Assembly: GCA_015654675.1 (NCBI GenBank)
Contig: JAATGM010000049.1
Coordinates: 1-64,000, forward strand
From: Planctomycetota bacterium
Lineage (GTDB): Bacteria; Planctomycetota; Phycisphaerae; UBA1845; UTPLA1
Reading direction: 5' to 3'
Length of the DNA stretch: 64,000 bases
A program made the position numbers and the translations under genes. Positions 56,933 to 62,501 of the stretch are shown here, one piece after another (within the stretch, counting starts at the first letter, position 1; every line of letters begins with the position of its first letter). The notes below the pieces were generated by a model. The model had not been told where the DNA came from. It was given only the letters and a program-made list of their open reading frames with translations, and made no database searches.

Positions 56933-57448
56933 GTGCCCCGCGAATTCTCATCTCACCCCATCGCCTATTTCATCACGTTCTCCACCCACGGAACACGCCT
57001 CCATGGCGATGCACGCGGCTCCGTCGACCGAAAGCACAATCAATTCGGCGCCGCCTACTTGCCCATCGATGCGAACAAAATGGACTACGAATCAGGAATA
57101 ATGAAGAACGAGCCCATCATTTTGACCGCCGCCTGTCGCGAACAGGTTCACCGAGCAATAGTCGAGGTCTGCGCTCATCGCGGCTGGGAATTACACGCCC
57201 TGAACGTGCGAACAAATCACGTGCACGTCCTCGTGTCAACGATGAACACGCCCGAGCGCGTCATGTCCTCGTTCAAATCATGGTCCTCGCGCCGCCTCAT
57301 CGAAGATCAAAGTTTCCAACGCGGTACCAAGATCTGGTCCCGGCACGGCAGCACTCGCTACATCTGGAATCGCGACCAATTCAACGCCGCCGGCCGCTAC
57401 GTGGTAGAAGGCCAGGGCCCCGACCTTAATTCAGAGCCGCGCACGTAA
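56933..57448 (+). CDS. REP-associated tyrosine transposase (RAYT; IS200/IS605-like Y1 family)
   Basis: A 171-residue HUH-type single-strand transposase. The metal-binding HUH motif is NHVHVLV (near residue 94). The catalytic tyrosine is likely in STRYIWNRDQF or GRYVVEGQG. The first segment ITFSTHGTRLHGDARGSVD is the classical RAYT N-terminus. The start is GTG at 56933. RAYTs cut and join REP hairpins without flanking long inverted repeats; here two identical REP-like hairpins (56818 and 57429) bracket the gene, and its last codons (NSEPRT and stop) are encoded inside the right-hand copy. The length is normal and the frame intact, so it may be active. Confidence 0.9.
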   Translation: MPREFSSHPIAYFITFSTHGTRLHGDARGSVDRKHNQFGAAYLPIDANKMDYESGIMKNEPIILTAACREQVHRAIVEVCAHRGWELHALNVRTNHVHVLVSTMNTPERVMSSFKSWSSRRLIEDQSFQRGTKIWSRHGSTRYIWNRDQFNAAGRYVVEGQGPDLNSEPRT

Positions 57449-57476: not shown

Positions 57477-57701
57477 TCAATCCTGCGATTCCCCGATGAG
57501 CGCCCCCGCCCGCCCCGAATCCTCATGCGCAATCCCCAAAATCAACGCCGACCCCACCGCCAGAATCGTGTAAATCATCTCCTCCTTCACCGCTAACCCA
57601 TACTCCGCCAACAGCGCCCCAATCACCGTCGCCAGCGCCACCCGCACCTTCCGCGACTTCAAAGGCGAAACCGCCCGCACCACCACATCCCGAATCCCCA
57701 T
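57477..57701 (-). CDS. Small two-helix membrane protein, holin-like in size
   Basis: A 74-residue protein whose ATG at 57701 is preceded by GGGGAGG. A basic N-terminus (VSPLKSRKVRVAL) leads into two hydrophobic segments, ATVIGALLAEYGLAV and MIYTILAVGSALILGIA, with a short acidic tail. Size and topology fit small holin-like or phage-derived membrane proteins, but there is no recognisable holin family signature and no lysis gene nearby. It lies 72 bases downstream of the ABC-GNAT gene on the same strand, with a hairpin between them. Confidence 0.65.
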   Translation of the reverse strand: MGIRDVVVRAVSPLKSRKVRVALATVIGALLAEYGLAVKEEMIYTILAVGSALILGIAHEDSGRAGALIGESQD

Positions 57702-57720
57702 CGCAACCTCCCCCCGTGTG

Positions 57721-57741
57721 CCACTGCTGTGTCAGCAGTGG
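57721..57741. repeat. Short perfect inverted repeat
   Basis: CCACTGCTG-tgt-CAGCAGTGG forms a 9-bp stem in the gap between the ABC-GNAT gene and the small membrane protein. It could be an attenuator/terminator or an interspersed repeat; no T-run follows on the minus strand. Confidence 0.5.
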
Positions 57742-57773
57742 ACAAGCCCCCAAAAACAAATGACCCCGCGCGA

Positions 57774-59183
57774 TCACCTCCGAAACGGATCATGCCGCGC
57801 GCGTTCCCCCACCTCCCCCCGCTCATTCCGCCGCGGAAACTCCCCTTCCCGATCCCACAAGTAATACACCGGCCGCGGCCCCACCAGCCCGCGAAACCGC
57901 GCCGCCAGCTCCTCCACCCCGCACCGGATCGCCCGCCGCTCGCCCCCGCCCGTCGTCGCCCGCCGCCAATCCCGGATCGTCTGCTCCACCATCCGCCGCA
58001 CCCGCGGACACCGCCGAATCCGCCCCGCAAACCCCTCCGAAAACGGATCAACCTTCATCCCCCGCATCCGCGCCAGCAGCGCCATCCGCCCGCGCGGCAG
58101 CCCGCTCACACCCACCCGCGCCATCCCCGCCCGCTCCAAGGCAGGGTTCACCGCCCCCATCGACGCCAGACACTCCACAAACCGCGTCCCCGCCGCCGGC
58201 AAAGTCTCGCGCACCAGCCGATGACCAAAGCCGCATCCGCGCACATCCGGATGCACCACCAGCCGCCGCAATATCCGCACCTCGCGATTCAACCGAAACG
58301 GATTGCACGCAAACCGGGCGCCCGTCGCCGCATTCCGCGCCGCCAGCTCGATCGGCGGCATCGCATACACCACCACCCCCAGCGGAGCCCCGCCCGCCCG
58401 CTCGCGCATCACGAACACCTTGTCCACAAACCCCAGCGCATCCCCCGCGCGATAATGCATCCCCGCAAACGCCGAATAGTCCCGCACCGACCCGCGCTCG
58501 ACAACCGCCTCATCCACCAACCGCGATCCACCGCGCGCGGTCCCGCTGTCCGATTCTCCATTCAACCGAATCACCACATCCGGCAGCAAGTCTGGAAGCA
58601 GCTCCTCGCGCGTCGTCGCCAGCACAATCGCCAGCCCGCGCCGCGTCGCCAGCCGCCGCAGGTTCATCGCCACCGCCCGCGCCACGCGCTCATGCAACAG
58701 CGCCGCAAAGTCGTCGCACAAAATCACCACCGGCTCGCGCGCACCCATCGCCCGCCCGATCGCCACCGCCAAAGCAGCCCGAAACCGCTCCCCCTCCGAC
58801 AACTCATTCACGCGCTGCAACCAGATCCGCGGCTCACCCAACCCGCACGCCGTAAGCACCTCCATCGCCTCCCCCACCGGCCGCCCGGGAACAACGGAGT
58901 CAATCAAACTAACTTCGCGCCGCACCGAGGCCGCCCCAACCCACCGCGCGCCCGGACATTGCCCAGCAATTTCCCGCAATACAGACGACTTCCCAGCCCC
59001 CGAAGGCCCAATCAGCACGGTCACCAGGCCCGCCCCAACCCGAACCCCCAGATCCCGACAAATCACCCGCCGCCCGCTATCGCCCATGAACCCGAATTCC
59101 GAACAAACCGTCGCCATTCGCGAAGAATTCACCACCGCGGCCCCGCCCACCACCACCGAAACCCGAATCGTCCGAACCGACAT
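57774..59183 (-). CDS. ABC-type ATPase fused to a GNAT acetyltransferase domain
   Basis: A 469-residue soluble fusion; ribosome site GGGAGGG precedes the ATG at 59183. Residues ~25-210 are an ABC ATPase: Walker A GPSGAGKSS (59-67), signature LSEGERF (128-134), Walker B VVILCDD (152-158). The residue after the Walker-B Asp is Asp instead of the usual catalytic Glu, and the switch His is replaced (LATTREE). Residues ~235-400 are GNAT-like with SAFAGMHYRAGD and the acetyl-CoA loop RGCGFG (315-320). No membrane segments are present, so it is not a transporter. I recall an uncharacterised orthologous group of this architecture (COG2401); a DNA- or protein-modifying function is only an inference. 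Confidence 0.8.
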   Translation of the reverse strand: MSVRTIRVSVVVGGAAVVNSSRMATVCSEFGFMGDSGRRVICRDLGVRVGAGLVTVLIGPSGAGKSSVLREIAGQCPGARWVGAASVRREVSLIDSVVPGRPVGEAMEVLTACGLGEPRIWLQRVNELSEGERFRAALAVAIGRAMGAREPVVILCDDFAALLHERVARAVAMNLRRLATRRGLAIVLATTREELLPDLLPDVVIRLNGESDSGTARGGSRLVDEAVVERGSVRDYSAFAGMHYRAGDALGFVDKVFVMRERAGGAPLGVVVYAMPPIELAARNAATGARFACNPFRLNREVRILRRLVVHPDVRGCGFGHRLVRETLPAAGTRFVECLASMGAVNPALERAGMARVGVSGLPRGRMALLARMRGMKVDPFSEGFAGRIRRCPRVRRMVEQTIRDWRRATTGGGERRAIRCGVEELAARFRGLVGPRPVYYLWDREGEFPRRNERGEVGERARHDPFRR

Positions 59184-59367: not shown

Positions 59368-59850
59368 ATGCCGGTGCGCGCGATTCAACGCATTGCTACT
59401 TCAATGGCCCTGAGCTGCGTCGTCGCTGCCTGTAACGCGAAATCTCCGCCTACGGCCCGCGCCGGGACACCCACGGCGGACGCATTTTCGATCCGCACAG
59501 CGACGACAACGCCTGATTCCGAGCATCAAGTGGCGATGCCCGACCGAGACGGAATCACATGGGCCGTTTCGACACAGCCCGTCGCGGACGAACAAAGCGT
59601 CGATCGCGCGAAAACTCGCGCCCTCAAGGGCCCGTCCGGCTGGGGTTTGAGTGTGGCCTTCCAACCGGCCGCCGATATGAAACTGCACGAATGGTCGAGT
59701 GCACACATCGGAAAGAATTGCGCGGTAATCGTCAATGGACGCCTGATGCTGGTGGCGCCCCTCCAGCGCCCGCTCTCAAGTGTCATTTGGATCGACGGCT
59801 TCGCAGGCGAAACCGAGGCCAGAAAAGCAGCCGCGCGCATTCTCGACTAA
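59368..59850 (+). CDS. Lipoprotein with a SecD P1-head-like domain
   Basis: A 160-residue predicted lipoprotein (lipobox VAAC, C22). After a Thr/Ala-rich linker, residues ~85-158 resemble the P1 head subdomain of SecD: GWGLSVAFQPAADMKLHEWS, then HIGKNCAVIVNGRLMLVAP, then GFAGETEARKAAARI. In SecD this piece precedes the membrane helices and helps pull proteins through the Sec channel. Here it is free-standing and lipid-anchored with no SecDF core. The gene is convergent with the nitrilase gene; their stop codons abut at 59850/59851. Confidence 0.65.
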   Translation: MPVRAIQRIATSMALSCVVAACNAKSPPTARAGTPTADAFSIRTATTTPDSEHQVAMPDRDGITWAVSTQPVADEQSVDRAKTRALKGPSGWGLSVAFQPAADMKLHEWSSAHIGKNCAVIVNGRLMLVAPLQRPLSSVIWIDGFAGETEARKAAARILD

Positions 59851-61643: not shown

Positions 61644-62501
61644 TCACCGGCGTTCACGGAGTTCGCCGTGCAGCTTGATCTCATCCATTATCGACTTGAT
61701 GATCGCTTGAAGACGCCCGGCCAAACGATACTCCTCTGCAATTCTCTGAGCTGACCATAGCAGTGGAACCATCGTCATGACCCAAGGATTAAAATGATAC
61801 CGTTTCCTTGAAACGGGGCCGTACGAGAAGTGCAGAGTGCCGTTAACGATCTTCGTACCAAATACCTTCAGATGGTGCGGCCTCGAATGCGCGACCGCGT
61901 TCCCCTCGTGCATCACGAATTTGAAGATCTCCCAAGCGTCGCGTCCGAAAGGGGCGCCTTCGGCCTTCTCCTGCCAAGAAAGGAACATCCATCGAGCGCC
62001 CCCCGGCTTTGGTGGCATCGATTGCCTTCGCCTACTTCGTCTCTTACGGCTAAGGGTCTTCCATTGAGCGGTCGCAGTGCTGTACGCGTCGATGATTCTC
62101 TGGCAATTCGGTCGTTCAGCTATTAACTGCTTCACAGTCTTCCCGTCGCGCGCTGCGACTACCCTAAGCAAGCGATAATCGTCCTCAGCACGCTCAAGCA
62201 AATATGCTTCTCGCAGCCTCCTAGAGTTCTCGGGATTGGCAAGAATGTAATGGACATCGACAGCGGCCTCATGCATTCGGCGACTAATCAGCAGGCAGTC
62301 CCAGATTCGACGGTGCCGTAAGAGCGTACGAATTGAATATCCTGAGCTCGCAATGCTAGCCAACAGGCTTAAGAGCCATGCCAGATCACCGCGTATTATT
62401 TTGTCTCGCTGGCACGCTTTGATCACGCCGCCTGCGCTTCGAAGCGACGCGTCAAGCAGCGTCGAATATTCGCGTGGTTTCCTCCGGACGGGAGCCGACA
62501 T
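61644..62501 (-). CDS. Hypothetical protein, possibly DUF5677-like
   Basis: A 285-residue cytoplasmic, largely helical protein. LLISRRMHEAAVDVHYILANPENSRRLREAYLLERAEDDYRLL and a later MHEGNAVAHSRPHHLK recall the 'EA..d..yi...' and paired-His pattern of DUF5677-type proteins, but I hold this loosely. It is Arg/Leu-rich with no signal peptide and no clear ribosome site at the ATG 62501. Codon choice looks less GC-biased at third positions than its neighbours, a possible sign of transfer. It lies 33 bases from the zinc-ribbon gene on the same strand. Confidence 0.6.
   Translation of the reverse strand: MSAPVRRKPREYSTLLDASLRSAGGVIKACQRDKIIRGDLAWLLSLLASIASSGYSIRTLLRHRRIWDCLLISRRMHEAAVDVHYILANPENSRRLREAYLLERAEDDYRLLRVVAARDGKTVKQLIAERPNCQRIIDAYSTATAQWKTLSRKRRSRRRQSMPPKPGGARWMFLSWQEKAEGAPFGRDAWEIFKFVMHEGNAVAHSRPHHLKVFGTKIVNGTLHFSYGPVSRKRYHFNPWVMTMVPLLWSAQRIAEEYRLAGRLQAIIKSIMDEIKLHGELRERR

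Follow-up and report, generated by a model that had tools for sequence, protein, structure and literature searches.

A fusion of an ABC ATPase with a GNAT acetyltransferase, encoded in the 64,000-nucleotide stretch of Planctomycetota DNA analyzed here (the window), is probably a DNA-packaging accessory of a domesticated, vertically inherited tailed-phage system that resembles a gene transfer agent (GTA). Comparisons of genes and genomes demonstrated that the ABC-GNAT family has a phage ancestry, that outside the window's order its members lie in a cassette with packaging genes, and that within the order the gene has been retained vertically alongside Mu-type virion genes. Many of the genomes compared were draft, metagenome-assembled genomes.

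The ABC-GNAT fusion and its holin-like partner

The initial annotation of this DNA had described an ABC ATPase fused to an acetyltransferase, followed on the same strand by a small two-helix protein. The fusion was confirmed by its open reading frame, Pfam matches, predicted fold, and presence in 51/61 genomes of the order, and the small partner proved to be a real, conserved gene. Their features in the window are as follows.

57774..59183, minus strand: ABC ATPase-GNAT fusion, 469 aa (ORF, Pfam, PHROGs, AlphaFold2)
58530..59123, minus strand: ABC nucleotide-binding domain (NBD) of the fusion, residues 21-218 (motifs, fold match)
58986-59009, minus strand: Walker A, GPSGAGKS, in the ABC domain
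58788-58802, minus strand: signature, LSEGE, in the ABC domain
58710-58715, minus strand: Walker B, Asp157-Asp158 (position 158 is Glu in relatives)
58059..58508, minus strand: GNAT domain of the fusion, residues 226-375 (Pfam, alignment, predicted fold)
58452-58457, minus strand: His243-Tyr244 dyad, in the GNAT domain
58224-58241, minus strand: acetyl-CoA loop, RGCGFG, in the GNAT domain
57834..58058, minus strand: C-terminal helical extension of the fusion, residues 376-450 (conserved in the order)
57477..57701, minus strand: two-helix holin-like membrane protein, 74 aa (core SRKVRVALATV...ILGIAHED conserved in the family alignment)

Pfam matched the first half of the fusion to ABC_tran (2.6e-7, residues 44-142) and the second to Acetyltransf_7 (6.8e-4, residues 302-327). 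A single profile from a phage protein family, phrog_11143, spanned both domains (residues 54-326, E 9e-24), the NBD preceding the GNAT in one chain; phage members matched this profile at 3e-103 and 5e-80. An AlphaFold2 model, made with 30 homologues as input, had a pLDDT of 85 and consisted of an NBD (residues 1-218) and a GNAT domain. A fold search of the PDB, informative for the ABC half only, placed that half near transporter NBDs (Z 17.9 to 7w78_A over 185 residues, rmsd 3.1). When viral models were searched instead (BFVD), the first-ranked match was a full-length one to the ABC-GNAT from Leptospira phage LE4 (E 5.5e-18), and a Mom protein was among the matches over the GNAT half.

The count of 51 genomes of the order reflects the search threshold; clear homologues made up about 45 of them, and the gene was usually present as a single copy. 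Homologues within the order were about 50% (41-55%) identical to the window copy, far beyond chance, and phage homologues 21-26%. At E 1e-20, ABC/GNAT matches were found in 145/198 Phycisphaerae, a count that includes matches to a single domain, and outside the window's order the two domains were often encoded by adjacent genes. In a sample of the phylum, 31/246 genomes had an ABC-GNAT.

The window copy carries the catalytic motifs of both domains (Walker A, LSxG, Asp157, the HY dyad, and RxxGxG), with Glu158 changed to Asp. Among 30 homologues from the order, Walker A, LS-G, Asp157, Glu158, the acetyl-CoA loop, and His243-Tyr244-Arg245 were invariant or nearly so; because Glu158 is so widely kept, the Asp158 of the window copy is an exception. 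Glu was also found at this position in 15/16 of a wider set that included phage homologues. The switch-His position was variable, with His in some relatives and in 6/6 phage homologues, R, N, or Q in others, and no His in the window copy. Of the altered catalytic residues noted in the initial annotation, the Walker B Asp is thus peculiar to the window copy, the family keeping Glu, and the missing His falls at a position that varies in the family. Lacking both the catalytic Glu, replaced by Asp, and the switch His, the ATPase of the window copy may be slow. The acetyl-CoA loop, previously judged to be intact, is so, and its RGCGxG motif was nearly invariant across homologues. His243 and Tyr244 were found in 16/16 members of the set with phage and other-class homologues, the phage version being HHYL. 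The Mom protein of phage Mu has KHYS ahead of its GNAT core, a likeness to the fusion GNAT that is suggestive only.

The holin-like gene begins 72 nt downstream of the fusion in the window. Wherever both genes were present among the loci checked, the holin-like gene was downstream of the fusion on the same strand (22/22), with a gap of 38-455 nt in 21 loci and 1111 nt in one. It was detected in 37/61 genomes of the order at the threshold used, and its matches to holins were weak (PF16938, E 0.01; phrog_9987, E 0.02). A single-sequence search at the level of the phylum gave 1/149, since that sample held no relatives from the order. Three other genes of the window lie close by: an IS200/RayT-like Y1 transposase (56933-57448, plus strand; PF01797, E 1.9e-10) convergent with the holin-like gene, and, as neighbors that are not conserved, a small protein weakly similar to SecDF_P1_head (59368-59850, plus strand) and a DUF5677 protein (61644-62501, minus strand).

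Repressor and packaging genes near ABC-GNAT

A protein with an XRE-type HTH and a peptidase S24 domain (HTH_3 2e-13, Peptidase_S24 2e-12), similar to CI and LexA, was found in 43/61 genomes of the order. Conservation extends to its catalytic residues, Ser (in DSMEPTLK) and Lys (in TLKRV). Across the 61 genomes, 42 had both S24 and the fusion, 3 the fusion only, 1 S24 only, and 15 neither (Fisher 1.7e-10). The joint absence of the two genes in family f4 may represent one loss, and outside f4 their co-occurrence had a Fisher value of 0.025. In many genomes of the order S24 lies 50-350 nt upstream of the fusion on the same strand; in the window's genome the two share contig and strand, S24 lying about 8 kb upstream, past the window's end (C2:67106-67723). 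The S24 protein presumably controls the fusion gene.

An operator-like site of the TATTG-N5-CAATA type was found upstream of the fusion in four genomes and upstream of S24 in three, at about tenfold over background (26 sites in 1.01 Mb of loci, scanned with a gap of 4-6 and one mismatch). The motif was derived from S24 upstream regions, so that only the sites upstream of ABC-GNAT, 4 versus about 0.35 expected, are an independent test, and a modest one. The site occurred in six genomes only, having first been noticed in family f8, and was absent upstream of the capsid genes. A general search for any palindrome common to the S24 and ABC-GNAT upstream regions gave no excess over mismatched genome pairs. 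In two close genomes (G006 and G014; locus L041), an inverted repeat, GGTCAGGT...ACCTGACC, flanks the S24 promoter; it may represent a repeat element or a further operator.

In other Phycisphaerae families, the neighbors of ABC/GNAT included packaging genes. Among 20 loci fetched from these families, large terminase (TerL) was near ABC/GNAT in 15, a ParB-like gene in 13, a small terminase (TerS)-like gene in 13, and a divergent S24 in 8, and the gene names were confirmed by PHROGs. The Planctomycetota have a conserved chromosomal cassette of XRE-S24 repressor, ABC and GNAT (fused or split), ParB-like protein, and small and large terminase. HMMs built from these loci, when run against further classes, found TerL beside ABC-GNAT in 5/5 loci of family f35; in f24, f50, and f21 its neighbors included S24 and ParB. 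Within the window's order, ABC-GNAT had no flanking ParB or terminase.

Phages carry the same cassette. Pseudomonas phage ZY21 has ParB, ABC, GNAT, and TerL, and its TerL matched the planctomycete TerL HMM at 3e-30; in phages Jace, LE4, and SSU5, ParB adjoins the ABC(-GNAT). In phages PX29, VmeM-32, and Komp_PAO1_1 the fusion was present with no recognized packaging neighbors. The phage-derived origin that the initial annotation had raised as one possibility is strongly supported by these loci: in phages the fused or split pair adjoins ParB and precedes terminase, and planctomycete copies have terminase, ParB, and a CI-like repressor for neighbors. The annotation had also envisaged homologues that were all isolated genes with no conserved partner; partners were instead conserved.

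Mu-type virion genes, their inheritance, and selection

Genes for a Mu-type phage head are widespread in the order, and the fusion presumably works with them. Portal_Mu was found in 54/61 genomes and the capsid protein gpT in 53/61, compared to 0/14 and 1/14 controls. The genes of the capsid cluster are ordered TerL, portal, protease, decoration, MCP, gp36, gp37. In the window's genome the cluster is on a different contig (C53) from the fusion, and there Pfam and PHROGs identified the Mu portal (1e-82), Mu protease I (3e-50), gpT (8e-58), gp36 (1e-22), and a gp37-like gene in the order found in Mu; gp30 and G were not found in this cluster. It is flanked by host genes, PEP carboxykinase upstream and heme oxygenase downstream, and no transposase was among the conserved neighbors of the main capsid cluster. 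An HK97-type capsid (PF05065) was rejected as the particle of the system, being present in only 7/61 genomes.

No tail genes were recognized beyond the gp36/gp37 connectors, and the genes downstream of gp37 had no family match. The contractile sheath (PF04984), the counterpart of the Mu sheath L, was found in only 1/61 genomes. In one genome (G014; locus L116, 1908-7248), six ORFs follow gp37, several of them conserved in about five genomes and with no PHROG match; these are candidate tail or appendage genes. In family f5 the gene order is ABC-GNAT, holin, lipoprotein, a gene of about 100 aa, gp25-like, and gp26-like, the last matching phrog_436, a family that contains Mu gp26. On contig C53 of the window's genome, 6 kb separate the lipoprotein, 100-aa, and gp25-like genes from the capsid cluster. 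In family f4, capsid genes are present and the holin-like gene follows the cluster with the gpT-like capsid and gp36, but ABC-GNAT and S24 are both missing, and the capsid module therefore persists without those genes. Presence of ABC-GNAT showed no statistical association with presence of the portal, since each is found in nearly all genomes outside f4.

In the portal tree, the main copies of families f1 (16), f4 (12), f5 (11), and f8 (10/11) formed clades with support of 97-100. The second portal copies of four genomes formed a separate group, and Mu-like prophages with a MuA-like transposase branched apart from the main copies. One such genuine prophage, in genome G001 (locus L133, 2745-6031), has a divergent second portal next to genes for a MuA-like transposase and a MuB-like AAA ATPase, and similar second portals occur in G005, G006, and G010. 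The portal of an f8 genome (G040, locus L158) stood apart on a long branch; it may be a replacement or come from a prophage.

The ABC-GNAT tree likewise recovered host families f1, f2, f5, and f8. Distances between ABC-GNATs were correlated with those between portals in a mirror-tree comparison (r 0.83, 0/2000 permutations), and this was also seen within f1 (0.66) and f8 (0.77), both with 0/2000, and within f5 (0.39, 62/2000). In close pairs, dN/dS was 0.06-0.28 for ABC-GNAT, 0.04-0.06 for the capsid, 0.06-0.16 for the portal, and 0.11-0.25 for TerL. Judged from trees and substitution rates, these results demonstrate that the main virion genes and ABC-GNAT are under purifying selection and have been inherited vertically, a combination that is one of the features expected of a GTA.

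Interpretation and comparison with known systems

Planctomycetes may make phage-like particles of their own. In the mechanism that we propose, a self-cleaving S24 repressor would silence the genes until DNA damage or some other signal relieves the silencing. The ATPase would then dimerize on DNA, possibly brought there by a ParB-like protein or terminase, and the ATP-gated GNAT, ahead of packaging or while it proceeds, would acylate either a base or a packaging protein. Chromosomal DNA would fill the capsids, for which the holin-like protein would provide a release route. Modification of DNA by the fusion GNAT is plausible; it accords with the invariant His-Tyr dyad and with an earlier prediction (Iyer 2013), as related in a passage of PMC7824862, that an ABC ATPase-coupled GNAT performs an uncharacterized acyl modification of a DNA base. 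We offer only tentatively the fuller proposal of an independently evolved, order-wide planctomycete GTA with a Mu-type head, in which a repressor-controlled ABC-GNAT operon marks the packaged chromosomal DNA, for example protecting it in recipients.

A GTA appears to be the best single reading of these genes, and some other use of the particle, such as interference, its main rival. Domesticated packaging and capsid genes would then serve a role other than transfer, in phage interference or as a killing or storage particle, with ABC-GNAT as a self-DNA marker or sensor. We consider this rather unlikely. It would fit the lack of a recognizable tail sheath, the separate loss of the capsid and ABC-GNAT modules, and the best PADLOC score of ABC-GNAT, which was to MADS mad3/mad8 through a generic ATPase stretch. 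Conversely, purifying selection extends to terminase, portal, protease, capsid, and head-tail connectors, a pattern to be expected of genes that still serve to package DNA, and no conserved defense genes are nearby. The defense or conflict role suggested in the initial annotation found no backing, as PADLOC gave generic ATPase similarity only and no restriction or toxin neighbors were found.

It is improbable that these genomes acquired the genes repeatedly and independently as ordinary prophages, satellites, or decaying remnants, with ABC-GNAT as phage cargo, and for the main copies this has largely been refuted already. Genuine Mu-like prophages with MuA/MuB-like genes do occur in some of the same genomes and phages do carry ABC-GNAT, but there is one main copy per genome, the trees track host families over about 40 genera, dN/dS is low, and the genes of the window's genome sit among host genes with no transposase among the conserved neighbors. 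Very improbable is a stand-alone host enzyme (a protein or small-molecule acetyltransferase or a ribosome-associated ABC) merely located beside phage-like genes. The neighbors of the fusion inside the window are housekeeping genes, and three genomes, one of them only 75% complete, have the fusion but neither portal nor S24 under the thresholds applied; yet most of the loci from other families, and several phages, link it to TerL, ParB, TerS, or S24.

If the GTA-like reading is correct, phage particles were domesticated once more, in a major environmental phylum, with a set of capsid, terminase, and packaging-accessory genes found across the order and in part elsewhere in the phylum. The genes also offer a natural chromosomal setting for examining the long-standing prediction that ABC-GNATs modify DNA. 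To our knowledge, few gene transfer agents are known. The open literature that we searched contained no GTA from the Planctomycetota, no paper on a phage ParB-acetyltransferase-terminase set, and no description of the present system. COG2401 ("ABC ATPase fused to acetyltransferase") is presumably a related archaeal family; the search turned up no publication that names it. The inherited, clade-wide system appears to be undescribed, ABC-GNATs as DNA modifiers having been predicted already in the work related by PMC7824862. A planctomycete prophage TerL has been placed near the TerLs of RcGTA, not as part of a planctomycete GTA (PMC7947584).

Several known systems share parts of this arrangement. 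The ABC-GNATs of phages (phrog_11143: LE4, Gordonia phage Jace gp86, and Nonlabens phage P12024S) are the same two-domain fusion, and Walker A, LSxG, the Walker B Asp, the His-Tyr dyad, and the GNAT loop are invariant between them and the window's protein. Those of LE4 and Jace adjoin ParB, whereas the fusion of the window's order is paired with the holin-like gene and, unlike the phage proteins, is chromosomal, vertically inherited, and extended by C-terminal helices. The P1-like phages ZY21, nickie, and SSU5 have ParB, ABC, (GNAT), and terminase, in order and proteins as in planctomycetes outside the window's order; their ABC and GNAT are separate genes, whereas in the window's order the two are fused and adjoin neither ParB nor that terminase. 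Mu Mom resembles the fusion GNAT in its fold and in the His-Tyr pair before the GNAT core, and, as is proposed for the fusion, it modifies DNA in connection with a Mu-type virion; Mom has no ABC domain, however, and the fusion did not match the Mom family, PHROG 1384. With RcGTA and other GTAs the planctomycete set shares vertically inherited capsid and terminase genes, purifying selection, dispersed loci, and a chromosomal regulator; it differs from RcGTA in being known here from genes alone, in its lack of recognized tail genes, and in its Mu-type head, with portal gp29 and gpT.
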